The position numbers and the translations under genes were made by a program. 63,719 bases of DNA from a virus. The stretch is taken from the IMG/VR virus record IMGVR_UViG_3300043331_000518, positions 1 to 63,719 of that record. The stretch is one strand, 5' to 3'. Below the pieces are notes generated by a model. It was not told the DNA's origin and made no database searches. It was given only the letters and a program-made list of their open reading frames with translations. Within the stretch, counting starts at the first letter, position 1. Every line of letters begins with the position of its first letter. This document shows, piece after piece, positions 1 through 27,464 of this stretch.

Positions 1-97
1 CACTCACGTACGCCATCATCCTCGTGCAGAGGCTCGACGCCGCGCATGAGGTGGTCTGGCAGATCGGCTACGTGATCGAGGACTACGGAATCTTCGA
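1..97. repeat. 97-bp terminal direct repeat, left copy
   Basis: These 97 bases are identical to 63623-63719. A gene reads through the junction without a frame change, so the contig is best read as a circle of about 63622 bp whose ends overlap. The exact, short overlap looks like an assembly overlap, but a physical terminal repeat cannot be excluded from sequence alone. Confidence 0.95.
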
Positions 98-421: not shown

Positions 422-634
422 CTAACGCGACGCGCTAGCCCGCTCCTCCTTCACTGCACGGTAGGCCACCATCTCGGCACAGGTGCTCAGCAGCACTTGG
501 TACTTGCGACCGTGCAGGGGGCGGAACACGACGTAGCCCACACCGGGTGCTGTCTCCCTGATCTCAAGGAAGCCAGCATTCTTGCCGTCGATGTGGATGC
601 CGGTCACGCGGATCGTCACGTCAACTAATGCCAT
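422..634 (-). CDS. Small hypothetical protein, last gene of leftward arm
   Basis: A 70-residue protein with an ATG start preceded by GGGAGGG. It looks like a small alpha/beta domain: a beta-rich N-terminal half (VTIRVTGIHI, YVVFRPLHGRKYQVLL) and a helical tail. No family recognised. It is separated from the upstream gene by the UUCG hairpin at 653-674 and ends 60 bases from the converging rightward gene. Confidence 0.65.
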   Translation of the reverse strand: MALVDVTIRVTGIHIDGKNAGFLEIRETAPGVGYVVFRPLHGRKYQVLLSTCAEMVAYRAVKEERASASR

Positions 635-2122: not shown

Positions 2123-5100
2123 CTACATCACCGCGATGCGATCAGGCGTCACCTGCTCCTCAAGCTCCTCATCGTAGTCGTCCTGCGGGATCACGATGTC
2201 CGAAGCGAGGTCGCTTGGAAGCATCCCGCCCTCGTACACGCGCATCCCATCCACGTTCCAGCGATGCTTGCAGCCTTCCTTGCACGGTTCCTCCGCGTGG
2301 TACTTGCCCCAGTTGTACCCAATCTTGGCCTCAGTACCGATGGAGAGGTAGTGCTCGCCGTCTGGATCTTCGGGCATCGGCGTACCCACACCCCACTCTT
2401 TCGGGCACCAGAGCTGCTTGATAGGACGCCGCATCTCACGGACCACACGCTCGTACACGTAATCGAACTCGGCTAGTGGAACCTCAAGAAGAAGAGCATC
2501 ATGAATCTGGGCCCGCAGCGGCGTGCGTCCGTAGAAACGGTCCCCGATGTAGCTCTCGTGCTCGGGATCGAAGAGGCGCAGCATCACCTCCGCGATCACT
2601 CCAGCCGCTGTTGACTGTGGGTAGAACGCTACTACACGCTTGGCATCCTCACCGAGCTTCACCTCCCAAACCCTGTTCCCGAAGCTCACGTACTGACGCC
2701 CAGGCTTCGGTTTCCCGTTCAGGGGTCTGTAGTTGAGTACGTTGAAGAACCAATGCATGTACCCGAAGGGGTGCTCCTTGCCCCCGAGGTAGGAGTCCTT
2801 CGCCGCTCGCTCCCGCACTTGGGCCTGCCATGTAGGCAGCTTCGGGGCCACTCGGTACGCGACCTCCTGAACGCGCTCAGCCTCCTTGAGAGTAGGGAAC
2901 TCCTTCGGGAACTGGAGAACCATGCCGCGGATGGTAAGCCCGTAGTTGAACCCATGGTTGAACCGCTTGCATTGGTCGTACTCGTGCGGGAACCGGGCCT
3001 TGATCGCCTTGAGCTGCTTGTAGACGATGTGGTCAGGCTGGTTCAGGTCAACAGACTCACCTACCAGCACCGAAGTGATGTACGCGTGAACCCCGAGCTT
3101 CGCGAGGCGGATGTAGTTAGGGTCTCGGCTGAACCACCCAGTAAGCACCGCCTCGATCCCAGCGAAGTCAACCTCTAGGAGGACGCAATCTTCCTGAGCA
3201 ATGATGCAGGGGCGGAAGAGGCCAGCAGGACCATCGTCGTCATGGACCACGTTCTGGAGGTTGGGGTCCTGGCAGCTCAGGCGTTGGGTCGAGGGCTTGT
3301 GGAGGAACGTAGGATGGAGGCGCCCGTCCAACTTGGAGCGTGGATCGTTGTCAAGACGCTTCAGCGACCCCAGGATGTACGTCGAGTCCACCTTGCTAAC
3401 GCGACGCCTCAGGAGGATCTTCCCGTAGATCGGCTTGTCCCCCTTGCGTGCGAGCCTCTCTAGGGTCTCCTTGTTTACGGTGACGTGCCCGTCCTTCTTG
3501 TCGTGCCCAGGTTGGTCACCCTGTGCATAGATGTAGGTCAGGAGCATGTCGCGCGAGCCGGGGTTGAACGGGCGCCGGCGGAAGAATCGGTGGACGACAC
3601 GCCAGTCCTCAGAGAGGTCGGGAGCTGGAGCCACCTTCACGTGGGACCCCTTGCCCTTGATGCCGCAGTCCTTGCGACCAGAGCATCGCTCACCCTCGAC
3701 GTGGACCCAGTACGACTTGCAACGGTGTTTCTTGTGAACCCCCTCAGCTCCGCAGCCCCGACAGACCGTCACCATCAGCTCGATGTCCTGCTCAACCAGC
3801 TCCTCGCCCTCCTTGAGCTTCTTCGGGGGCTTGGCTGTACCGTTGATGGGGATTAAGGGGCGGAGAGTGTCGGGGACCAAGGCCCTAATCTCTTCGTCGT
3901 ACCCAGCCTGTAGCTTGGCTAGCTCATCGTGGGCATCGAGGAGCCTGTCCTTGTCCGCCAGTAGCCCCACCTCTTCCGCCGGGTGCAGTGCCAAGGTGTC
4001 GAGCTTCCACACGTGACGCTCGAACACGTGCCACATGTTGAGGCGCTGGAGGTGCTCGGTGATGCCGAACGCAACGCGCAGGGTCTGGACCCCATCGATG
4101 GCCGCATACTTCACGGGCTCGGTGTCGGAGAGGTGCTTCCAAGGACCATAGGTGCTGTAGAAGGGGGCCACGAACCCAAGGCCGCGTGGGAGGTCGCTCT
4201 GCAGCACATGCCACGCCCACATAAAGTCCCAGATAGGCTGGGCGACCGCGATGCCCTTCGAGCGCAGCCGAGGCACGTCGTAGTTCGCGTTCCAGAAGCA
4301 CTTCACCCCCAGCGCTTCGAGCAGCCGCTTGATGATCTCGATGTAGGGGCCGTGAAAAGGAACCGTGACGCCCTGGTTCCTGTTGTAGCTGAAGTTGACC
4401 CGCGTGATCTGGTAGTCTCGATCCGCGATCTTCAGCTCGCCCTCGTCCACCTTCTTCGCTTTGTCTGGTGTCTCGATGTCAACAGCAAGCCAGATGCCCC
4501 ATGGGTCCTCGGCTACAGCGGCAAGGTAGACCTCAGCCCACTCGCGGAACCACCAAACATCAGGGTCCTCGACCAGCTCGGTGTCTTCCACCTCCCACCC
4601 GTGCTCAGCCACATGCTTGGCACGCTCGAAGTCGAAGCGCATGACGCCGAAGAGGTTGAAGGCGCCGCGGGCGAGGTGGGATGGGTGGTAACTCGGGACC
4701 ACCCAGAAGCGGTTCGAGGGGTCGCGTTGGATGGTCCCGTGGAAGTCTTGGACCCTGACGCCCCTTTTGGGGAGCCCCAGGATGTTGCGGAGCGGGACTG
4801 CCCCAAGAGTAACCATGACCTTGTTGGTTACTGGACCAAAGGTTGGGTCACGGCCCGGAATCCAGGTGCCATCATCCGCGAGGGACGGGCCGGTGCCAAC
4901 ATCGATGACGCGCCCGCCAGCGGCAACCCACTTGTCGATCTGCCCAGCAAGGTACCGCTCCCTACACGTAGCAGGGGCGGTATACTCCCACGTAGTCTTC
5001 TCGATCTTGTTACCGGGCGGCTGACAGTTGATGATGTTGCCGATCTTGACTGAGGATCGTGGGATCTTCGACTTCTCCAGACCCCGGTTCAACATCCAGC

Positions 5101-5254
5101 CAGCTTGCCCAACGAACGCCTCGCTGCGCGCTGCCTCTTGGGAGCCCAACGATTCCCCAACGAAGAAGAATGGGGAACTGTCGGGGCCAACCGGCCAAGC
5201 GAACCCCTGGCCTATGTGCGCGAGGTCGCAGCCCTCACAGGATGGTAGAGGCAC
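2123..5254 (-). CDS. Family-A DNA polymerase with N-terminal uracil-DNA-glycosylase-like domain
   Basis: A 1043-residue replicative polymerase. Residues 1-215 resemble family-4 uracil-DNA glycosylases: the four iron-sulfur cysteines (C6, C9, C77, C97), a GES-G-QE motif near 33-40 followed by FVGQAG, and a YHPS motif at 189-192. A DnaQ-like 3'-5' exonuclease motif (AVDIETPD) is at 257-264. The polymerase core has motif A at 694-706 (VDFAGIE), motif B with K763 and the NYG at 770-772, and motif C HDA at 918-920. A Cys-rich insertion near 498-530 (CRGC and later Cys) may be a zinc ribbon. Fusion of a UDG domain to PolA is known in some phages (for example SPO1). It is the replication core of the leftward arm. 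GTG start. Confidence 0.9.
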   Translation of the reverse strand: MPLPSCEGCDLAHIGQGFAWPVGPDSSPFFFVGESLGSQEAARSEAFVGQAGWMLNRGLEKSKIPRSSVKIGNIINCQPPGNKIEKTTWEYTAPATCRERYLAGQIDKWVAAGGRVIDVGTGPSLADDGTWIPGRDPTFGPVTNKVMVTLGAVPLRNILGLPKRGVRVQDFHGTIQRDPSNRFWVVPSYHPSHLARGAFNLFGVMRFDFERAKHVAEHGWEVEDTELVEDPDVWWFREWAEVYLAAVAEDPWGIWLAVDIETPDKAKKVDEGELKIADRDYQITRVNFSYNRNQGVTVPFHGPYIEIIKRLLEALGVKCFWNANYDVPRLRSKGIAVAQPIWDFMWAWHVLQSDLPRGLGFVAPFYSTYGPWKHLSDTEPVKYAAIDGVQTLRVAFGITEHLQRLNMWHVFERHVWKLDTLALHPAEEVGLLADKDRLLDAHDELAKLQAGYDEEIRALVPDTLRPLIPINGTAKPPKKLKEGEELVEQDIELMVTVCRGCGAEGVHKKHRCKSYWVHVEGERCSGRKDCGIKGKGSHVKVAPAPDLSEDWRVVHRFFRRRPFNPGSRDMLLTYIYAQGDQPGHDKKDGHVTVNKETLERLARKGDKPIYGKILLRRRVSKVDSTYILGSLKRLDNDPRSKLDGRLHPTFLHKPSTQRLSCQDPNLQNVVHDDDGPAGLFRPCIIAQEDCVLLEVDFAGIEAVLTGWFSRDPNYIRLAKLGVHAYITSVLVGESVDLNQPDHIVYKQLKAIKARFPHEYDQCKRFNHGFNYGLTIRGMVLQFPKEFPTLKEAERVQEVAYRVAPKLPTWQAQVRERAAKDSYLGGKEHPFGYMHWFFNVLNYRPLNGKPKPGRQYVSFGNRVWEVKLGEDAKRVVAFYPQSTAAGVIAEVMLRLFDPEHESYIGDRFYGRTPLRAQIHDALLLEVPLAEFDYVYERVVREMRRPIKQLWCPKEWGVGTPMPEDPDGEHYLSIGTEAKIGYNWGKYHAEEPCKEGCKHRWNVDGMRVYEGGMLPSDLASDIVIPQDDYDEELEEQVTPDRIAVM

Positions 5255-6599: not shown

Positions 6600-7121
6600 T
6601 TAGAAGACGGGGGGATCATCGTCGCCTTCGAGTGGTGGAGGGGGGACTGTCGGCTTCGGCAGTGCGCGGATGAGCTTCCTGGTGTCCGTGGTGATGGTCG
6701 AGGTGTTGGGGAGGAACAGGATACGGTTGGGGGTGTAGTCTAGCCCCCCGTGGCAGACTTCCCAGACCGTAAGAATCTCGCGTTGGGGGTCGGAGCCCAA
6801 AAGCGCTTGCAGGCAGCTCGCTGCGTTACGATCGAGGGATGTTCGGATCGCCACGATCACGTGGAGGCCACCTCCCTTCGAGCGCCACCAACGATAGTGG
6901 CGGAACCCGAACTTGCTGAAGATCATGGTGAGTTGGCGAGCATACACCTGCTGCCACGCCTCGAACGGTACTGCCTCGTCGATATCGAGGAGCAGCTCGT
7001 CGCGGTCCCCCACCACCACCTTGCAGTTGAGGTTGGTTGCCTTCGCCCCGATCTCGTCCAGAGTGATTAGGGTGTAACGGCGTGGCTCCTCGTCTCCGAT
7101 GTCCAACACGTCCCCACCCAT
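6600..7121 (-). CDS. Possible primase-polymerase-like (AEP fold) protein
   Basis: A 173-residue protein. It contains LLLDIDE (D46, D48) and, about 40 residues later, SKGGGLHVIV (H87). These resemble motifs I (DhD) and II (sxH) of archaeo-eukaryotic primases. A third acidic motif is not evident and the protein is shorter than typical PrimPols, so it may be a minimal or inactive version. The ATG overlaps the upstream NADAR stop (TGATG). No other primase candidate is visible in the genome, which makes the reading attractive. Confidence 0.45.
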   Translation of the reverse strand: MGGDVLDIGDEEPRRYTLITLDEIGAKATNLNCKVVVGDRDELLLDIDEAVPFEAWQQVYARQLTMIFSKFGFRHYRWWRSKGGGLHVIVAIRTSLDRNAASCLQALLGSDPQREILTVWEVCHGGLDYTPNRILFLPNTSTITTDTRKLIRALPKPTVPPPPLEGDDDPPVF

Positions 7122-7861
7122 CACCGCACCCCCTTCGTCTCTGCCCACAACTCTCGCCGCAGGATCATCAGTAGCTGGCCGAGCCTGTTCTGACCGACAC
7201 CGTCACACACGCCCCAGTAAGTGTCGTTCCAGTAGTTGCCCTCCACCAACTCGCTGGGCTCGGTCTTCAGGAGCTGGTAACGGAGCAGGGGGTCCGCGAA
7301 CTTCTGGCGAAGTAGGAACATCATGGCGTGCTCCTTGATGTGCTCCCAGTCCACCCGAAGGTAGGTTTTGGCGCGCCCCCAGGTCTTGGCGGTCCCCGGA
7401 CTGGGTGCCACCGCGATCCTGGTGAACGCGTTCATGTCCGTCATCTTCATGGCCTGATACCCGTGCTCCACGGTGCGACAGATGGCGACGGTGGGAGGGG
7501 CCCACCCGTAGGGGGCCTTGACCACCCCCTTCACCACCTCCATCCCGACCTCGAAGTTGAACACCGTCAGCACCGGTGACGGGTAGAAGTTGCTCAGGAA
7601 CCTCTCGGTCCCACGGAAGGCCACGATCCGTCGCAGGCTCGGTGCCGCCGCCTGAAGCTCCTCAGTGTAGGGGTCTGCGGGCAGTGCGTTGTTCATGGAG
7701 AGCTGAGGGGGGACCACGACGGAGGGTCGCACCAGAATGCCCCTCGGATCGCCTGACGCCGGATCGCCCGACGCGTTCCAATCTCTCGGCTCGGGCTCTC
7801 GCCCTCGCCTCGGAGAAGTAGTAGCTGTCTCGTTGCGAGTCTCGTCGTGGTCGTCGCTCAC
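7121..7861 (-). CDS. NADAR/YbiA-family protein (putative ADP-ribose glycosidase)
   Basis: A 246-residue protein. After a 75-residue disordered N-terminus it shows the NADAR signatures in order: FLSNFYP (88-94), TVEHGYQAMK (130-139), AKTWGR (158-163), LLRQKF (183-188), LVEGNYWNDTYWG (205-217) and GQNRLGQLLM (223-232). Family members cleave N-glycosidic bonds; NADAR proteins paired with DarT1-type toxins remove ADP-ribose from guanine in DNA. In a phage it could undo ADP-ribosylation by a host DarT-type defence, or act in NAD or riboflavin-linked metabolism. The GTG start at 7861 overlaps the upstream stop (GTGA), tying its expression to the recombination genes. Family assignment strong, role inferred. 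Confidence 0.8.
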   Translation of the reverse strand: MSDDHDETRNETATTSPRRGREPEPRDWNASGDPASGDPRGILVRPSVVVPPQLSMNNALPADPYTEELQAAAPSLRRIVAFRGTERFLSNFYPSPVLTVFNFEVGMEVVKGVVKAPYGWAPPTVAICRTVEHGYQAMKMTDMNAFTRIAVAPSPGTAKTWGRAKTYLRVDWEHIKEHAMMFLLRQKFADPLLRYQLLKTEPSELVEGNYWNDTYWGVCDGVGQNRLGQLLMILRRELWAETKGVR

Positions 7862-8760: not shown

Positions 8761-8969
8761 GCGCTCACCCCCACTTCTCGTAGGTTGTCGTTGTTCTCTT
8801 CCGGCCCCTCATGATAGGAGGGTGTGTCGTCGTGGACGGGGCAGGTCAGCCATCCGTCCTTGGCGGCACACGGCGTCGGCATGGTCCCTGGTGCGTGCTT
8901 CCACGCGTGCGTCATGCGTCCTCCAGCCTGCCCTCCCCCGCTGCAGTAGTGCGTATGATCCTTCGGCAT
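8757..8969 (-). CDS. Small Cys/His protein between nuclease and annealase
   Basis: A 70-residue protein with scattered Cys and His (HTHYC, CAAKDGWLTCPVHDD) that could bind one zinc ion. The ATG at 8969 overlaps the nuclease stop (a GTG one codon upstream is also possible) and the stop overlaps the next start, so it is translated as part of the nuclease-annealase unit. No family recognised. Confidence 0.5.
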   Translation of the reverse strand: MPKDHTHYCSGGGQAGGRMTHAWKHAPGTMPTPCAAKDGWLTCPVHDDTPSYHEGPEENNDNLREVGVSA

Positions 8970-10303
8970 CACTCCTCCTGGCCTTGCTTCTGCGCGACCT
9001 CGTCAAAGAGCCGCTCCATCATCAGCCGCTCAGGTTCGTGGTGCGGAATCCGCGGCTCAAAGATGCCGCCCGGTCCATCGACGTTCTCCGCCGTGATCCC
9101 GTCTTCCTGGTGGCAGATCTTGTAGTACGGACACATGTGTTCCTTCCCGAACCGTACGCAGTCCCAGCTCTGTACGATCTCTTCGTCAAGGGCCTGCGTG
9201 AGGGGCATTCCGGCACTCCGCTTCTCGTACACCGCCCAGATGCGCTCGTTCCAACGCCGTTCATCGGGCTCCACCGATGCGAAGTAGCCATTGATGAGGA
9301 AGTTCTGGCGCGGGTAGGGGCCGATCCGAAGCAGAGCGTCCTGACGCACCTGCTTCCCGAGCATCTCGACCACGTACTCCATGCGAGTCCACCCTGGCGG
9401 CTTCTCGCTACCCAACTCCAGCTCCCACACGGGGCTCTTGAGGTACCACCGACCGCCCGACCCAAACGTAGCGAGCGTCAAGGGCGGATTCGCTGGCTCG
9501 TAGTCTACGTAGCAGAAGTGGCTCTGCTGTCGTTTCGGCCCCGAGTAGTCCTTCAGGTCAGCTACGTAGGACGCTCGACGCTCCCCCTTCACGAGGAAAT
9601 GGACGTAGTAGTGGGTCACCGGCTCGCCCAATAGTTCCTCGATCACACGGCTGCCCGACGCCATCTGCACGCTGTCAACGTAGCGGCGCACGGTGTAGTC
9701 GCTCGTCTGCTTCTCGGTCTTGAAGTCGTGGTTCCCAAGTTGCCCATCGCTGCGACGACGGAGAATGATGTCTGGGCGTACCATGTAGAAGACGGCATCG
9801 CAGGTGATGGTGTGGCGCTCCCATCGAGCATCGCCCTCGGCAGGGCAGTCGCATCCCATCGCCTTGGCTGCCTCGTGCTCCACCAGTACGATCTCGAACT
9901 CGGCCAGGAGCGCGGGCAGCCCTTCATGAATCCAGGCCCAAGTGATTCCCTCGATGAGTGATACCTGTTCCTTCACGAGCGTTGCGAACGAGGCCTTGTC
10001 TTCGAGGTAGAACCCACCCTTGCGAGACATCATCTCTGTGTACCGTTTCGAGGTGTTGAAGACGATCTCACGGAGCTGCCGCCGGGTGGTGTCGTCGAGT
10101 GGAAGCGATATCGGTGTCGGGCCGTTGAGTTGGATCACCTTGAGGATGTTGGCAAGGTTCTCGTGTACAGCCACACCAGTCTCCAGCTCCAGGTTCGCGA
10201 ACCGCTGCACGATTCCGTACCCGTTGTGGTGATACTTCCAGTACCGCTTGCGGGGGCAGTGCTGATGATGGTCTTCTCGGACGGAGCGGGAGGTGAAGAT
10301 CAT
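8969..10303 (-). CDS. RecB/Cas4-like PD-(D/E)xK nuclease with iron-sulfur cysteines
   Basis: A 444-residue protein. The nuclease motif is VRPDIIL (D178) followed by NHDFKTE (D193, K195). An N-terminal Cys (C16 in HCPRKRYW) and three C-terminal Cys (C382, C391, C397) match the split four-cysteine iron-sulfur clamp of AddB/Cas4-type nucleases. It is probably a processive DNA exonuclease that makes single-stranded ends for the neighbouring annealing protein. ATG at 10303 overlaps the upstream stop (ATGA). Length is well above the ~200 residues of Cas4, so it has extra N-terminal and linker regions. Confidence 0.8.
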   Translation of the reverse strand: MIFTSRSVREDHHQHCPRKRYWKYHHNGYGIVQRFANLELETGVAVHENLANILKVIQLNGPTPISLPLDDTTRRQLREIVFNTSKRYTEMMSRKGGFYLEDKASFATLVKEQVSLIEGITWAWIHEGLPALLAEFEIVLVEHEAAKAMGCDCPAEGDARWERHTITCDAVFYMVRPDIILRRRSDGQLGNHDFKTEKQTSDYTVRRYVDSVQMASGSRVIEELLGEPVTHYYVHFLVKGERRASYVADLKDYSGPKRQQSHFCYVDYEPANPPLTLATFGSGGRWYLKSPVWELELGSEKPPGWTRMEYVVEMLGKQVRQDALLRIGPYPRQNFLINGYFASVEPDERRWNERIWAVYEKRSAGMPLTQALDEEIVQSWDCVRFGKEHMCPYYKICHQEDGITAENVDGPGGIFEPRIPHHEPERLMMERLFDEVAQKQGQEE

Positions 10304-11640
10304 CGAAGCGCCTCGACCAACAGCCGTACCTCTTCAAGGGTGGCGTTGCCGAACACGGAGCGGACGGCCCTGGCGACGCGCTCTGGGTCATCGAGGTCGC
10401 TCGTTTCCTCGCCCTTCGTCCTTCGCTCCAGACGGATGCTCGATCCGATCTCCTCCGACTTCGCGTCGAACGTCACGCGTACGGCTGCGGCGAGTTCGAT
10501 GCCTTGGCTGGCCGCTGTCAGGTCTGCGTAGATCACAACGTCCGCGAGTTCGCGGCCCAGCTTCTCGCGCAGCGCGGGGAGGTTGCGGTCTTCACCCTTG
10601 TTTCCGGCTACGTTGCCGCGGTGGCGTATCATCTTCTTCGCGATGTTGGCTGCCTCGCCGGCCTCGCCACACATCGCGTTTGTCCATTCGGCGACGGACC
10701 AGCTATCGAGCGTGTGACGGAAGTCGTTCACGCAGCGCGGGACGTTGGCTGCTCGGAGTTCCGCGAATGAGAGGTTGTCGGGTTGGGACGCTGGCTTCGG
10801 CTCCCCTAGCCTCGTCTCTTGATCGGTCCCACCTTGTAGCGGTCGGGCTGGACCAGCAGCCAACGCTCCACCGCTTTCCATGCGTCCCGCGCGTCCTGCT
10901 TCTGTGGGTTCGCCATCTCCACGATGAACTCCACCGTCACCCGATACGCCTCGTAGCGCTTCGGTCTCGCCATCGCTCTCTCCTCGGGCCATGGCATCCA
11001 GCCACGCCACGCCCTCGAAATACACGTCGTCATAGCGTGGAGGAGGACCGCCCACGGGCCCCGGCTCCTCTAGTCCTCCCTTGCTGCACATGCAGCGATG
11101 CTCCCCATGGCTACGCATGTTGTAGTTGCACCGCTTCGGGTGTTCATGTACATGGTGGCACTCCTGACAGCGCTCCTCTATCTTCGGAGCCTCCTCCCGC
11201 TCCCGTAGGGCCACGTAGGGACGACTCGTCAGCGCTTTCCCCACGAAGTAGAACTCCGCCTCGCACGCCAGTCCCTTCTCGACCAAGAGGTCGTCGATGC
11301 AAAGGGTGCAGAGGGCCCCGTACTTGTCCCCACCCGACGAATCCCGCTCTACGATGACGTTCCAGAACTCGCTCGGGATGCTAGTGTCGAGGTTGTGTGG
11401 CGCGCCGCACCGTTGGCACCGGAAGTCGTAGTCGGGGCGCGTACGCAAGGCGAACTTCATTGCAGCCTCTGGGCCCCCCGCCTCGTAGGCGTCCAGGGCG
11501 ACGCGGAACGAGACCAAAACGTCCTGGATTTGCCCGTCAACGATGCAGGAGCATTCCCCGCAGGAGTGGATTAACCCCCGCCTGTCCAGATCCGCCACGA
11601 ATGCCCGCTCCGCGGCCTCTCTCCGCTCCCTAGCAGTCAA
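10300..11640 (-). CDS. Cys-rich domain joined to MazG-like pyrophosphohydrolase
   Basis: One continuous 446-codon frame. Residues 1-200 are Cys-rich (CGEC, CQRCG, CTLC, CQECHH, CMC) and end in a short acidic segment. Residues 285-400 resemble a MazG-like nucleotide pyrophosphohydrolase: SVAEWTNAMCGEAGEAANIAK-type motif followed by LGRELADVVIYADLTA, the EExxE/ExxD metal-site layout. The join (about 10800-10980) is Gly/Glu-rich, has poor codon use in this frame, and contains a better-looking gene in another frame (10806-10973). The MazG part may therefore be a separate protein starting at ATG 10881 (193 residues). MazG-like phage enzymes hydrolyse non-canonical or alarmone-type nucleotides. Confidence 0.6.
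   Translation of the reverse strand: MTARERREAAERAFVADLDRRGLIHSCGECSCIVDGQIQDVLVSFRVALDAYEAGGPEAAMKFALRTRPDYDFRCQRCGAPHNLDTSIPSEFWNVIVERDSSGGDKYGALCTLCIDDLLVEKGLACEAEFYFVGKALTSRPYVALREREEAPKIEERCQECHHVHEHPKRCNYNMRSHGEHRCMCSKGGLEEPGPVGGPPPRYDDVYFEGVAWLDAMARGESDGETEALRGVSGDGGVHRGDGEPTEAGRAGRMESGGALAAGPARPLQGGTDQETRLGEPKPASQPDNLSFAELRAANVPRCVNDFRHTLDSWSVAEWTNAMCGEAGEAANIAKKMIRHRGNVAGNKGEDRNLPALREKLGRELADVVIYADLTAASQGIELAAAVRVTFDAKSEEIGSSIRLERRTKGEETSDLDDPERVARAVRSVFGNATLEEVRLLVEALR
10806..10973 (-). CDS. Small gene nested in the MazG ORF, different frame
   Basis: A 55-residue basic protein that begins MARPKRYEAYRVTVEFIVEM and ends GPIKRRG. Its codons are nearly all G/C-ending, unlike the overlapping frame of the long ORF, so this frame is probably the coding one here. 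A GGAGAG motif lies 5-10 bases before the ATG. Predicted as strand-helix with a basic, possibly nucleic-acid-binding tail. Either a true nested gene, or evidence that the long ORF is really two genes with this one between them. Confidence 0.6.
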   Translation of the reverse strand: MARPKRYEAYRVTVEFIVEMANPQKQDARDAWKAVERWLLVQPDRYKVGPIKRRG

Positions 11641-11836
11641 GGAATGCCCCCACTCCTTGGTAATCGGGACAGATGCAGTTCTTGACGGTGCAGTGGCGGC
11701 GCACCCTACCGCCTATGCGGATGGGTCTTCCCGGCTCACGGGCGGGCTTTCGATGCTCGGACCGCAGGTGGCGGCAGTAGTAGAACGAACACCGTGGATC
11801 GTCGGTGGTGGCCTCTCTCCGCTCCTGGCCGCTCAC
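11630..11836 (-). CDS. Small Cys/His-rich protein
   Basis: A 68-residue basic protein. The sequence YYCRHLRSEH followed by CTVKNCICPDY could form one zinc site (C, H, C, C). The GTG at 11836 overlaps the Csx16-like gene stop; its first residues (SGQERREA) copy the start of other genes in this cluster. Function unknown. Confidence 0.55.
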   Translation of the reverse strand: MSGQERREATTDDPRCSFYYCRHLRSEHRKPAREPGRPIRIGGRVRRHCTVKNCICPDYQGVGAFLDC

Positions 11837-12159
11837 CGCACGCGCTCATCTGCCGTTTGCGGAACACGCACCACGAGGTAATGCGTTAGGGTCGCCCCAA
11901 ATAGGTCCATCTCCTCCGGTGTCAAGTCGCCCCCACGCCGCCCTAGCGGGATCCCTGGTGTATCAATCATCACTAGTTCCTTAGCCAGCGCCGCCAAATG
12001 AAACGGGAGCACTCCGTAAACAACTTTCCCCACAACATCGTTAGGCTCGGCATGTTCGATGACTGGCCCAACGATGCCGCGCCTACGCAGCCATTCAACT
12101 GCGCCACGATGGCGGGACACGATTACGACCCTCCTCCCCATCCGCTCCTGGTCGCTCAC
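11833..12159 (-). CDS. csx16: Csx16-like protein, putative cyclic-oligoadenylate ring nuclease
   Basis: A 108-residue protein that follows the Csx16 (VVA1548 family) pattern through its whole length: VSRHRGAVEWLRR (14-26), a central GVLPFHLAA (49-57), a GRRGGDLTPEEM segment (73-84) and FGATLTHYLVVRV near the C-terminus. Csx16 proteins are associated with type III CRISPR loci and have been reported as ring nucleases that degrade cyclic oligoadenylate signals. In a phage, with no CRISPR genes around, the obvious role is shutting off type III CRISPR (or CBASS-like) signalling. Codons are more A/T-ending than in neighbours (CTA, GTT, TTT, ACA), suggesting later acquisition. GTG at 12159 overlaps the upstream stop; ATG at 12141 after AGGAG is the alternative. 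Family call fairly firm, role inferred. Confidence 0.75.
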   Translation of the reverse strand: MSDQERMGRRVVIVSRHRGAVEWLRRRGIVGPVIEHAEPNDVVGKVVYGVLPFHLAALAKELVMIDTPGIPLGRRGGDLTPEEMDLFGATLTHYLVVRVPQTADERVR

Positions 12160-12341
12160 CGCACGTACCTCCACCATCTCGCATCCGTCTCCTTGGCTCG
12201 CTCGTCGCCGGGGAAACACTTCGGGCACGGTGCTGTCGTGGTTGTATCTACCTCCCAATGGTAGCGAATCATTCCACGTCCATCGCAGACTTTGCAGTCG
12301 GACAGGGCGTGCTCGCGGTAGTACTGCTCGGTTTGGCTCAC
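12156..12341 (-). CDS. DnaJ-type zinc-knuckle small protein
   Basis: A 61-residue protein with CKVCDGRGMI and, 20 residues later, CPKC. The CxxCxGxG element is the DnaJ-like zinc repeat, here in a single copy. The GTG at 12341 overlaps the upstream stop, and its own stop overlaps the Csx16-like start. It could be an RNA- or protein-binding adaptor; no further evidence. Confidence 0.65.
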   Translation of the reverse strand: MSQTEQYYREHALSDCKVCDGRGMIRYHWEVDTTTTAPCPKCFPGDERAKETDARWWRYVR

Positions 12342-12571
12342 CGCTTTCGCCTCGCCCGTGGCTTGGCCGTGTTCCTGTAGATGGCTTGGAGGGTCGTCGG
12401 GATGCCCGTGAAGTTGGGGCAGGAGAGCAATGCGTTCAGACGCTGCAACTCTCGGCGAATGTCCATGAGCACGGCGATCCCGATGCGCTCCCAAGTCGGC
12501 AGGGTGCCATCTTCGTTGGCGACGTACCAGTTGATGTTGGCGGCTGTTCGGTCAACACTCTTGTTCGTCAT
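12338..12571 (-). CDS. Hypothetical protein, 77 residues
   Basis: Helical protein with a basic C-terminal tail (RNTAKPRARRKR). ATG at 12571 follows GGAGAG. The central WERIGIAVLMDIRRELQRLN is an amphipathic helix that could self-associate. No Cys pairs, unlike its neighbours. No family recognised. Confidence 0.6.
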   Translation of the reverse strand: MTNKSVDRTAANINWYVANEDGTLPTWERIGIAVLMDIRRELQRLNALLSCPNFTGIPTTLQAIYRNTAKPRARRKR

Positions 12572-12584
12572 CTCTCCATCTCGA

Positions 12585-12806
12585 TCACGGCGTAGCCTCT
12601 CGGCGCGTCTGGTCGTGAAGGGTCGAGAGCCTATCACCGCCCATGAAGGTGAAACGGACCCGCAAGCCATGCTCCCGCAGATGTAGGGCGAGACCACGAC
12701 GCAGGCCTTTCTGCGTACTGAAGGTCCGATGGAAAGGGCAGTTGTAGATCGGGCATTGGAAGTCGAGCTTCCCGGTCCAGCGTTCCGACAGGTTGATCTC
12801 CTTCAC
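12585..12806 (-). CDS. C2H2-type zinc-finger small protein
   Basis: A 73-residue protein with CPIYNC, a Phe/Leu core and HLREH: a C-x4-C ... H-x3-H arrangement with a longer loop than the classical C2H2 finger. The N-terminus has positive residues and the C-terminus is basic, so DNA binding is plausible. GTG at 12806 overlaps the stop of a tiny upstream reading frame (12803-12847). Confidence 0.6.
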   Translation of the reverse strand: MKEINLSERWTGKLDFQCPIYNCPFHRTFSTQKGLRRGLALHLREHGLRVRFTFMGGDRLSTLHDQTRREATP

Positions 12807-12847
12807 TTCGTGTCCTCGACGGGCTCCGTCCGCTCCTGGTCGCTCAC
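12803..12847 (-). CDS. Possible 14-codon coupling minigene
   Basis: Reads MSDQERTEPVEDTK. It starts with GTG overlapping the upstream stop (GTGA) and its stop overlaps the GTG of the next gene in the same manner. Its first five codons (S-D-Q-E-R) are the same as those of the Csx16-like gene. It may be a truncated duplicate of that gene start that keeps ribosomes moving between flanking genes. Confidence 0.3.
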   Translation of the reverse strand: MSDQERTEPVEDTK

Positions 12848-13131
12848 CGCCCACCACCTATCAGCCTCTCGTCGCACGCCGAGCGGAGGCACGACCTGAG
12901 CCCACAGAAGTTGCATAGCTCCCTTCCCGCGGCATCCAAGAAGCGCTGGCTTGAGTCCTTTCCGCCCACTGAGCAGCTATCGCAGAAGACGTGGCACAGC
13001 ACCGCCTTCGGTGGGTCGTACTTGTCCCTCGGCATGTTCGACATCTTGCGGTGGCACCCTGGGCAGAACAGGTGAATGCGCCCCGGGCGCAACTTGGCGT
13101 AGCCGACGTAGGACAGCGTGATGTCGCTCAT
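12844..13131 (-). CDS. Zinc-ribbon protein with several Cys pairs
   Basis: A 95-residue protein: HLFCPGCHRK, CHVFCDSC, then CNFCGLRSC and a last Cys, enough for two zinc sites. ATG at 13131 overlaps the upstream stop (ATGA). The N-terminal TLSYVGYAKLRPGRIHLFCP looks like a strand followed by a ribbon. Function unknown; probably binds nucleic acid or a host protein. Confidence 0.6.
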   Translation of the reverse strand: MSDITLSYVGYAKLRPGRIHLFCPGCHRKMSNMPRDKYDPPKAVLCHVFCDSCSVGGKDSSQRFLDAAGRELCNFCGLRSCLRSACDERLIGGGR

Positions 13132-14095: not shown

Positions 14096-14827
14096 TCACC
14101 GAGGAATCTTCGTTGCGACGACGGCCTCGGCCCCAGGTGCGCTGATGAGCATTTGCAGGTCCGGGCCGCTGATCCAACACCGCCCGCCAATGCCCCACCC
14201 CTCTCCCCACGAGTTGTGCAGCAGGAAGAACAGGTCAGTGAGATTCCGGCCCTTCATCCGGTACCCGATCACCACCAAGGCGTGCCCGCCCGTAACGTCG
14301 CCTTGGGGTGTGATGAGCCCCACGTTGCTGGGGAAGTACATCTCCTCGTACCAATCGATCCCGAGCAGCACCGGAGTCGGGACCTCGGTGGTGTTCGCCA
14401 GCCACCGAGGAATCTCGGTCACGTCCCTGATGTACCGATAGCTCTTGATGTCGATGTCGGGATGTGCGGCCATGAACTTCACGAGCCCCGTCACCGAGGT
14501 TCCGTCGTAGCCCTCACCTTCCCACGCATCGTAGAACTGGGCACCCCTGTAGTACCCATGCGCGTCGAGCGTGATCCGCTTCTTGCCCCGGAGGCTCGGA
14601 GTCGCGCGCTGCCAAGCCTCACCGCTGAACCCAACACACTTGGGCTCGCGTCCCTGGTCCCCGTTCCAGGCCAGCCTCAGCGTCTTGCTACTCGGCAGCT
14701 CTGTGGGCGGAGGTGCCGCAACGACCCCCTCCCTGAACAGCGGGGCCAACATCAGGTTCCTCGGGTCAGGCGGCGCCGGCAGTCGTCCATGCCCGAACTC
14801 GCCCACGAACTTCGCATCAACGTACAT
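14096..14827 (-). CDS. Papain-family (C1-like) cysteine peptidase
   Basis: A 243-residue protein with the papain catalytic order: Gln58 and Cys64 (QGREPKCVGFSGEAW), His182 (GGHALVVIGYR) and Asn205 in the HNSWGEGWG motif. Cys is followed by VGF rather than the animal WAF, as in many bacterial C1-like peptidases. There is no signal peptide and only about 55 residues before the catalytic Gln, so it probably acts in the cytoplasm without a long propeptide. Possible roles: cleaving a host factor or processing a phage protein. The motif evidence is strong; substrate unknown. Confidence 0.85.
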   Translation of the reverse strand: MYVDAKFVGEFGHGRLPAPPDPRNLMLAPLFREGVVAAPPPTELPSSKTLRLAWNGDQGREPKCVGFSGEAWQRATPSLRGKKRITLDAHGYYRGAQFYDAWEGEGYDGTSVTGLVKFMAAHPDIDIKSYRYIRDVTEIPRWLANTTEVPTPVLLGIDWYEEMYFPSNVGLITPQGDVTGGHALVVIGYRMKGRNLTDLFFLLHNSWGEGWGIGGRCWISGPDLQMLISAPGAEAVVATKIPR

Positions 14828-19459: not shown

Positions 19460-20001
19460 TGTCTCACCCCCCTCTCCGTCGCCGCCCCCGCCCTCCCGTA
19501 CTTGTTCAGGAACTCCGCCGGGGTGCCCTTGAAGAGCGTGTGGTCGTTGTCCTTCACCTCGATCGTGATGTACGAGCCCGGCCTCCCGCCGGTCACGGTG
19601 TAGACGTACTCCTCGCCACAGTCACGAGTACCGGCCTTGTGGAGGTAGATGCCCCCGACTGACGGCCTGCCGAAGTTGGGGTTGGGCGCCCTCACGAACG
19701 CGGTGCCATTGAACTCGATGGTTTCCAGAGGCTCCATCTTGAAGTGCCCTACCACCTGCGCCGCGAGACACCCCATGCCGTTGGCGTAGCGGGGCTGGGG
19801 CCCGACCGTACGCCCGCACGGGATCCCGTTGACCATCTCGATCCCTTCGAGGAACCCAGCCAGCTCCAGTCCATGCCCCTCCGGGTACCCATCGAACTGC
19901 CGGTACATCACCAGCAGCTCTACCTCCTTGCCCCACTGGTCGTCCATGAACACCGTCAGCGATCTCGTGCCCACCACCGTCAGCGATCTCGTGCCCACCA
20001 T
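19456..20001 (-). CDS. Conserved-looking phage protein with a duplicated N-terminus
   Basis: A 181-residue protein. Core features: MYRQFDGYPEGHGLELAGFL, CLAAQVVGHFK, a GGIYLHKAGTRDCGEEYVYT segment and a C-terminal LFKGTPAEFLNKYG. I recall this set from hypothetical proteins of phages and plasmids, but no function comes with it. The first 16 residues are two copies of VGTRSLTV from a 24-bp tandem duplication; the original start may be the downstream ATG before DDQWGKEV. Strong AGGAGGTGA ribosome site. Confidence 0.65.
   Translation of the reverse strand: MVGTRSLTVVGTRSLTVFMDDQWGKEVELLVMYRQFDGYPEGHGLELAGFLEGIEMVNGIPCGRTVGPQPRYANGMGCLAAQVVGHFKMEPLETIEFNGTAFVRAPNPNFGRPSVGGIYLHKAGTRDCGEEYVYTVTGGRPGSYITIEVKDNDHTLFKGTPAEFLNKYGRAGAATERGVRQ
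19952..19999. repeat. Tandem 24-bp duplication in a gene start
   Basis: Two identical 24-bp units (19952-19975 and 19976-19999) add eight in-frame codons to the N-terminus of the gene 19456-20001. Exact identity implies a recent event. Confidence 0.9.
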
Positions 20002-20010
20002 TCACCTCCT

Positions 20011-20045
20011 AACCCGGCCCCGGCTTTGGACGGGGCCCGCGGGTT
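20011..20045 (-). terminator. Intercistronic hairpin next to ribosome site
   Basis: AACCCG (20011-20016) and GCCCCG (20017-20022) pair with CGGGGC (20031-20036) and CGGGTT (20040-20045) with a 3-base bulge. It ends directly at the AGGAGG site of the gene 19456-20001. It could end the upstream transcript or protect a processed 5' end. Confidence 0.55.
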
Positions 20046-20104
20046 AACAGCATGGAGCCCCGCTAAGGGTTCAGCTCCACGCTGCCCATCCCCTAGGGGA
20101 CCGA

Positions 20105-20614
20105 CTAGTAGTCCTCGTCGTCCTCGTCCACCACCGCCACCGACCCCGACGCCTTCTCGATCGCCTGCTTCACGACGTGGTCCAGGTTGATATCCTTGTT
20201 CTTGACGAAGGCGTTGTAGGCAAGAATGGCCTTCGTCTGCTCCGCATCGAGCCTCTTGAACTCCGCGACCTCCTCCTCCGTGAGGGCACGCAGAGTGGTG
20301 CGATACCCGTACCGGGAGAACTGCTCGCTGCCCTTGCCATGCATCTTCTGCACGAGCGGGTGTCCCGTCCCCTGGTGGACGCCTGTGGCGACGCGATGCT
20401 CCTTCGTGTTCACGTCGAAGAACAGCACCTCGATCTTGGCCCTCGACTGGCGCAGCTTGGCGACCACCTTCGCTCGCACGGCCTGCAGGGTCTCCCCCCA
20501 TGCCAAGTCGGGCCCCCCGTCCACCCTCGCGGTGAACCTGCCGTCACCATCCACCTCGAAGGTGACTACGGTCCCCGCGATCGTTTCCGTCTTGAGCTTC
20601 ACCTCGACACTCAC
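20105..20614 (-). CDS. Hypothetical protein, 169 residues
   Basis: Beta-rich N-terminal half (EVKLKTETIAGTVVTFEVDG, KIEVLFFDVNTKEH) and a helical C-terminal half ending in an acidic tail (VAVVDEDDEDY), a tail type seen in single-strand-binding proteins, though nothing else supports that. GTG start. It follows the DUF932-like gene across a long hairpin. No family recognised. Confidence 0.55.
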   Translation of the reverse strand: MSVEVKLKTETIAGTVVTFEVDGDGRFTARVDGGPDLAWGETLQAVRAKVVAKLRQSRAKIEVLFFDVNTKEHRVATGVHQGTGHPLVQKMHGKGSEQFSRYGYRTTLRALTEEEVAEFKRLDAEQTKAILAYNAFVKNKDINLDHVVKQAIEKASGSVAVVDEDDEDY

Positions 20615-26774: not shown

Positions 26775-26846
26775 CGCCAAGACGGCGACGGGGCTGGCGG
26801 CTCGCGTGGGGGGTTGCCAGCCCTATTTCAGGAACAGGAGGAGACG

Positions 26847-27464
26847 GTGGCTTTCGAGGAGTTCGCCAAGGTCGCGCGATTCAGCCGGGGCTGCGTCATC
26901 ACCGAGAAGATCGATGGCACCAACGCGCAGGTGCAGATCGTGCCGAAGGTGGACTTCGTGGACTCGGACGAGTGCTACGTGCTGGCGCGCAACGAAGCAG
27001 GCGACGCGATGCTGGCCGGCTCACGCACGCGGTACATCGTGCCGGAGGCCGATAACTTCGGCTTCGCGGGCTGGGTCGAGACGCACGCAAAGGAGCTGTG
27101 GACCCTGGGTCCTGGGCGTCATTACGGCGAGTGGTGGGGTTCGGGCATCCAGCGCGGCTACGGTCTCTCGAAGGGCGAGAAGCGGTTCAGCCTCATCAAC
27201 ACGCGACGGTGGGGCCCGGCGCGCGACCGCGACAAGTTCCCTGAGGGCGAGCCCTCTTGCTGCCATGTGGTGCCGGTGCTCTACAAGGGGCTGTTCAGCT
27301 CAGCGGGGATTGACGATGCCATCGCGGAGCTGCGCAGTACGGGCTCCCAAGCCGCTCCTGGCTTCATGAACCCCGAGGGCGTCATCATCTACCACGAAGC
27401 CGCTGGAGTCTTCTTCAAGAAGACGCTGGATCGGGATGAAGAGCCGAAGGGGGCACGGCGGTGA
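26847..27464 (+). CDS. RNA-ligase-family protein
   Basis: A 205-residue nucleotidyltransferase. Motif I is TEKIDGTN with K21 as the adenylated lysine; motif III-like GEWWGSGIQRGYG follows, motif IV is PEGVIIY, and motif V FFKKTL is near the C-terminus. This is the compact core of RNA ligases (Rnl2/PF09414-like), lacking a large C-terminal domain. Probably seals RNA nicks, for example in tRNAs cut by host defence nucleases; no polynucleotide kinase partner is visible. GTG at 26847 was chosen because AGGAGGAG precedes it. Confidence 0.8.
   Translation: MAFEEFAKVARFSRGCVITEKIDGTNAQVQIVPKVDFVDSDECYVLARNEAGDAMLAGSRTRYIVPEADNFGFAGWVETHAKELWTLGPGRHYGEWWGSGIQRGYGLSKGEKRFSLINTRRWGPARDRDKFPEGEPSCCHVVPVLYKGLFSSAGIDDAIAELRSTGSQAAPGFMNPEGVIIYHEAAGVFFKKTLDRDEEPKGARR

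Follow-up and report, generated by a model that had tools for sequence, protein, structure and literature searches.

Csx16 is present in 68 type III CRISPR loci, and the one family member that has been tested is a ring nuclease, which degrades cyclic tetra-adenylate (cA4) to linear products but does not degrade cA6. The tested protein was found to be specific for cA4 even at higher protein, and a 100-fold excess of cA4 was fully degraded by it (Hoikkala et al. 2025, PMC12409355). Among the 28,114 phage genomes of the same study, Csx16 was found in two, AcrIII-1 in 36 and Csx20 in four, and AFV3-109 is named there as a viral homologue of Crn2. Viral ring nucleases acting as anti-CRISPRs have published precedent (PMC12409355, and passages of PMC13148439). 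Given that phage-borne Csx16 is already known from two phage genomes in PMC12409355, the gene described here is not a first.

The window, which is the whole stretch of DNA analysed (63,719 bases), makes up the whole of one virus record, whose first 97 bases are identical to its last 97. DNA polymerase A (Pfam), a terminase and a major head protein (PHROGs) were found in it, which bears out the phage origin given in the preliminary description; the portal match was weak and fell below the cut-off. Read from its DNA sequence alone, the record is a phage. Its terminase and polymerase match only remote phages with mixed hosts, and a comparison of its capsid protein with IMG/VR returned only L018, a piece of this very phage whose 2,896 aligned bases are identical. 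The claim that the genome lacks CRISPR genes and arrays was confirmed as far as it was followed: profile searches, which covered the Cas10 palm domain and RAMP proteins rather than each other cas family, found neither in the window, and a simple exact 20-mer scan found no CRISPR arrays. The csx16 gene lies on the minus strand in the same block as the polymerase, and the packaging and head genes lie on the plus strand; this layout suggests early or middle expression of csx16. No integrase was found among the window proteins scanned, the scan not being exhaustive.

The motifs that had been quoted as the Csx16 pattern (SRHRGAVEW, VLPFHLAA, LTPEEM and FGATL) all occur in an open reading frame on the minus strand. 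This gene and the features around it are as follows:

11833 to 12141, minus strand: csx16-family gene, 102 aa from ATG 12141, PF09652 at 58.2 bits
11630 to 11836, minus strand: Cys-rich ORF of 68 aa directly after csx16, no Pfam match
12156 to 12341, minus strand: ORF immediately preceding csx16, zinc-ribbon-like by eye, two CxxC pairs
12141 to 12160, minus strand: repeat copy at the csx16 start, with AGGAG and a GTG overlapping the upstream stop
11818 to 11837, minus strand: repeat copy (1 mismatch) where the following ORF begins, with a GTG that overlaps the csx16 stop
12829 to 12848, minus strand: third repeat copy, starting a 14-codon frame that overlaps the GTG start of ORF 12585-12806

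The Pfam match, to PF09652 (Cas_VVA1548; E 9.7e-16, cut-off 25), spans residues 7-89 of 102 and profile positions 2-89 of 91; the score was 57.7 bits in the whole-record search. The PADLOC Csx16 models agreed (up to 52 bits), and hhalign of a profile against five CRISPR-linked or chromosomal Csx16 gave a probability of 99.1 (E 1.5e-18, 92 columns). However, NCBIfam TIGR02620, which is NCBI's Csx16 model and a hypothetical equivalog, gave 28.6 bits over residues 7-51 only, below its cut-off of 46.35; the profile check proposed in the preliminary description was thus positive with Pfam and PADLOC but not with NCBI's model. PHROGs returned no match. Since the TIGR02620 score is below the cut-off, the protein was filed under the Pfam family and not under NCBI's model; judged by these profiles, the ORF at 11833-12141 is a genuine Csx16-family gene in the Pfam sense. 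An AGGAG lies three bases upstream of ATG 12141. Perhaps the gene starts instead at the in-frame GTG 12159, which would lengthen the product to 108 aa and forms a GTGA overlap with the upstream stop; the whole Csx16 domain is retained with either start.

The repeat at these junctions is 20 bases long and occurs in three copies in the window, compared with 0.01 expected by shuffling. Each copy has a GTG that overlaps the stop of the preceding frame and an internal AGGAG; ORF 12585-12806 (minus strand), next to the third copy, is Cys/His-rich. The repeat is similar in type to the Start Associated Sequences that parts of PMC3203893 describe for cluster K mycobacteriophages, and it might mark a cassette of accessory genes. 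In archaeal viruses, common upstream elements that are promoters mark anti-defence genes, and acrIII-1 of SIRV1 and SIRV2 is without those elements (both from passages of PMC11065993). Near csx16, promoter- and terminator-like sites showed no excess over shuffles.

Two further features had been claimed for the surroundings of csx16, and each held in part. The codons of csx16 had been described as richer in A/T than those of its neighbours, hinting at acquisition. The third-position GC of csx16 (0.61) is the second lowest of the 32 ORFs examined, the lowest being that of 19980-20501, which is possibly not a gene. However, the adjoining ORF 12156-12494 has a value of 0.62, so codon usage is only a weak hint of acquisition. 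For the packed cluster of zinc-ribbon genes, put forward as a possible source of further counter-defence factors, the neighbours are Cys/His-rich by eye, but no scanned neighbour rose above any Pfam cut-off. The ORF directly before csx16 encodes about 61 aa from GTG 12341, a start picked by eye, and the longer ORF 12156-12494 gave sub-threshold Pfam matches only. A MazG-like part suspected by eye in 10300-11640 was without Pfam support and was rejected, and no relatives of the 444-aa ORF 8969-10303 were found by search.

Several other genes in the window were annotated. NADAR proteins are linked to ADP-ribose chemistry, and a NADAR-domain protein at 7121-7861 (minus strand; Pfam 66.7 bits; PHROG 1017, annotated as of unknown function) may be a further counter-defence gene. 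In the single 1043-aa ORF 2123-5254 (minus strand), residues 22-111 form a uracil-DNA-glycosylase-superfamily domain and residues 561-944 a family A DNA polymerase. An RNA ligase family protein at 26814-27464 (plus strand; Pfam 45.7 bits) is possibly an RNA repair enzyme, and a papain-family cysteine protease domain was found at 14096-14827 (minus strand; Pfam 25.3 bits, cut-off 20.7).

Residues H11, G43, L45, P46 and G70 are invariant in all 28 aligned rows (three of them CRISPR-linked), and R10, H30, V41, L49, R69 and L73 are near-invariant. By this conservation, H11 appears to be the residue most likely to act in catalysis or to touch the ring. It may coincide with the mutated histidine of 8y7g (H495A), a correspondence only suggested by the aligned ranges 1..92 / 485..563. 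The AlphaFold model, computed from nine rows (the window, seven IMG/VR relatives and one MAG relative), reached a pLDDT of 91.2 and a pTM of 0.80. Foldseek gave no significant match against the PDB, where Cad1 with cyclic oligoadenylates supplied the first row (E 0.16) and several of the other high-ranking ones, and none against viral models. When Foldseek's top 1000 chains were re-aligned, the best was 2j6b (AFV3-109, a crenarchaeal virus protein; Z 5.3, 74 residues, 2.7 A), followed by a Csx1-Crn2 mutant with cA4 (Z 4.6), Cam1 (4.2), Cad1-CARF (4.1) and Cam1 (4.0). All these top five chains are ring binders or ring-nuclease homologues; the sixth is an unrelated methyltransferase (Z 3.8). The likeness to CARF-like Rossmann folds is middling by the tool's note even at Z 5.3 (AFV3-109), Foldseek being non-significant. 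These middling values carry weight because the top five are ring-related and because 2J6B, at DALI Z 4.8, is also the match printed for the Csx16 model of Hoikkala et al. (PMC12409355).

Five scans of IMG/VR, run with the window protein and four alignments, returned 17 further records with a Csx16 domain, including a partial gene (L049) and a 4.2-kb near copy (L047) of another record (L046); since the scans rest on short peptide patterns, the true number is at least 17. Scanning with the CRISPR-linked and chromosomal form gave one record only, which another scan also found. Among 50,697 named phage records, three matches were obtained, namely Methanobacterium virus Drs3 (two records) and PhiF3, which are probably the two Csx16 phage genomes of Hoikkala et al. 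(PMC12409355). No Cas10 was found in any of 19 tested Csx16 virus records (the 17 from IMG/VR, the window and Drs3), nor RAMP proteins in any of nine (the window, 7 of the 17 and Drs3). A terminase was seen in five of the nine records searched (the window, L003, L015, L016 and Drs3), as well as in L002, and none (PHROG 2) in L012 to L014; independent evidence of phage status thus covers some of the records. In L003 a RecT-like gene directly follows csx16, and in Drs3 an ERF gene lies about 3 kb from it. The related phages L012 and L014 share a common gene order in which csx16 (64% identical) is kept. The sole match in the genome-contig scan, L017, looks like a prophage because a serine integrase and a helix-turn-helix gene adjoin its csx16; a different contig of the same MAG carries Cas10 and RAMP genes. 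Beside csx16, L017 also encodes a 329-aa protein (8988-9977) that has a Csx16 domain and a second weak match.

Csx16 was found on nine plasmid records, eight of which were opened. It lies within 7 kb of CRISPR genes in four of these (Allochromatium vinosum, A. tepidum, Aeromonas media and Photobacterium toruni) and is an orphan in four (Allomeiothermus silvanus, with two loci, Deinococcus proteolyticus, Paenibacillus polymyxa SC2 and an uncultured archaeon), an orphan call meaning that no CRISPR genes lie within the 5-7 kb shown, not within the whole plasmid. On the A. silvanus plasmid, the Csx16 domain is part of a 671-aa protein (L005, 6001-8016), and a second longer protein (L033, 7007-7792) has two Csx16 domains by eye. 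A chromosomal orphan csx16 was observed in two related genomes, G053 and G105 (L034 9594-9890; L037 9667-9963); the genes around it are housekeeping-like, and the only Cas10-like match elsewhere in each genome is sub-threshold. Because of the orphan copies on plasmids and chromosomes, location in a CRISPR locus is not essential for Csx16. Cellular Csx16 was hard to sample, with one genome-contig locus and genome searches giving 1/10, 2/97, 2/2 and 0/95, the first two counts both including G003, the source of that locus; the 14 control genomes are no positive control for PF09652, since none of them has Csx16.

Measured between GxLPxxL and the following RG, the loop near the conserved motif is 17-19 residues long in all 21 IMG/VR, prophage-like and orphan-plasmid rows (19 in the window). 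It is 22 in six CRISPR-linked or chromosomal rows, five of them measured by script and L054, which escaped the script's pattern, by eye. Both methanogen viruses (Drs3 and PhiF3) have 23. The six cellular rows have 3-4 residues more in this loop than the short form, a difference that could alter the site. In an unrooted tree of 29 rows, the 23 mobile rows were separated from the six CRISPR-linked or chromosomal rows with support 99/99; the split was the same with 28 rows and had support 100/98 with 25. A less well supported branch (80/96 and 82/92) places two mobile rows, L006 and L052, on the same side as the cellular rows, and the window itself belongs to no strongly supported set. Tree rows were trimmed to 100 or 102 residues, L054 being only in the last tree. 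Our alignment (A9) omits L047, L049, L008 (182 aa, partial domain) and the extra Csx16-like domains of L005, L033 and L017; its rows L005, L033 and L048 are domains cut out of longer proteins, and the L042 row begins at a GTG located two residues ahead of its RH. On TIGR02620, 14 of the 16 virus proteins tested, the window's included, scored below the cut-off, the two that passed being L042 (48.8) and L052 (57.9). Both CRISPR-linked proteins, the one chromosomal protein and the archaeal plasmid protein passed, and L017 failed.

Collectively, these comparisons raise the tentative idea, to which we give somewhat less than even odds, that phages, prophages and plasmids carry their own short-loop Csx16 lineage, which parted long ago from the CRISPR-linked form, is maintained for its anti-CRISPR effect, may prefer a different ring and largely escapes NCBI's model. 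The position of AcrIII-1 beside Crn2 offers a parallel. The cellular side of this comparison is thin, at six rows versus 68 published loci, and sampling started from a short-loop query. In the passages of the literature examined, with few subscription journals among them, no description of a short-loop mobile Csx16 was found. This form is the new part of the present analysis and rests on the limited cellular sampling; its kind is already known.

Since Csx16 is a proven cA4-specific ring nuclease, action against type III CRISPR is the best reading of the window gene. With a probability of about 0.7, we propose that it encodes a Csx16-family ring nuclease, made by the phage in infection to destroy cA4 and thereby keep type III effectors off. 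In such a scheme, the type III Cas10 of the host would make the alarm molecule cA4; Csx16, produced early or midway through infection, would cut it, presumably as a dimer, and the cA4-activated effectors would stay off. The phage would have to meet hosts with cA4 signalling. The same role had been put forward in the preliminary description, and it is made likely by profiles, the predicted structure, relatives and what has been published on the biochemistry of Csx16. A phage form that binds and hides cA4 without cutting it would have a similar effect. Csx15, a relative by name, shows good binding of cA4 with very slow cleavage, and phage sponges against other cyclic nucleotides have been published (passages of PMC13148439). 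We nevertheless consider a sponge unlikely: the tested Csx16 degraded cA4 in 100-fold excess (PMC12409355), none of the 28 aligned rows departs from H11, the residue likeliest to be catalytic, and sponging suits type III, where much signal is made, poorly, as the authors argue in part of PMC13148439.

It is slightly less probable again that the short loop has changed the ring preference (to cA3, cA5, cA6 or CBASS rings), in which case the protein may counter CBASS or another signalling defence. The loop of 17-19 residues compared with 22 in cellular rows and the separation in the tree would fit this, and a phage Crn4b is said, in a portion of PMC12830947, to act on cA3 and cA4; against it, the tested Csx16 kept to cA4 even at higher protein (PMC12409355), and nothing in the present analysis pointed to a different ring. 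The gene might also be no weapon but a passenger that damps down the type III system of its host, with less self-damage or coexistence of a carried phage as the result. Orphan copies occur on plasmids, and the L017 copies have an integrase and a repressor-like gene as neighbours; Cas10 and RAMP genes are found on another contig of that MAG. In the window, by contrast, csx16 sits in the DNA polymerase block and no integrase was seen among the scanned proteins, and we regard a passenger role as improbable. Finally, designed ankyrin proteins are among the PDB matches of the nine-row profile (E values as low as 5.8e-10), as would be expected of a short ankyrin-like stretch without a Csx16 fold. 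The best stretches cover mainly profile positions 27-60, a YGVLPLHLAA-like piece, whereas Pfam, PADLOC and hhalign give Csx16 across nearly the whole length and the confident model shows four strands that are at least three residues long. An ankyrin identity, resting on one short motif and clashing with the model, was therefore rejected as barely conceivable. The reading as a cA4-degrading Csx16 remains the preferred one.

If this reading is true, one more viral ring nuclease family counters type III signalling. The carriers of the short-loop form are metagenomic phages, and the form was not found in the 50,697 named phage records. Being small, the protein lends itself to direct testing, and it opens the question of whether loop length separates host-run from invader-run off-switches.

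Compared with the known systems, the window protein is closest in kind to the Csx16 of type III CRISPR loci, with which it shares a single small domain, common motifs and the invariant residues (32% identity with that of A. vinosum). It differs from them in being phage-borne, outside a type III CRISPR locus as judged by the lack of Cas10, RAMP proteins and, by simple scan, an array, and in having a loop 3 residues shorter (19 versus 22). The Csx16-like proteins of Drs3 and PhiF3 (38% and 29% identical to it in A9) are also virus-borne and without cas context; unlike the window, these are archaeal viruses with a loop of 23 on a separate branch (91/89). Crn4b and AcrIII-2 are phage-encoded proteins that act, or are candidates to act, on cyclic oligoadenylates (portions of PMC12830947, PMC13148439 and PMC12751052); the fold of Crn4 is unrelated and its range of rings broader, according to part of PMC12830947, and AcrIII-2 is a SAVED protein, according to passages of PMC13148439 and PMC12751052. 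AcrIII-1 / Crn2 (DUF1874) has the same presumed job, and its homologue AFV3-109 is the structure best re-aligned to the window model, but it is another sequence family: a Pfam scan of the window protein to E 0.1 returned only Cas_VVA1548 and not DUF1874. The window Csx16 most likely works like AcrIII-1 while standing outside the AcrIII-1 sequence family.
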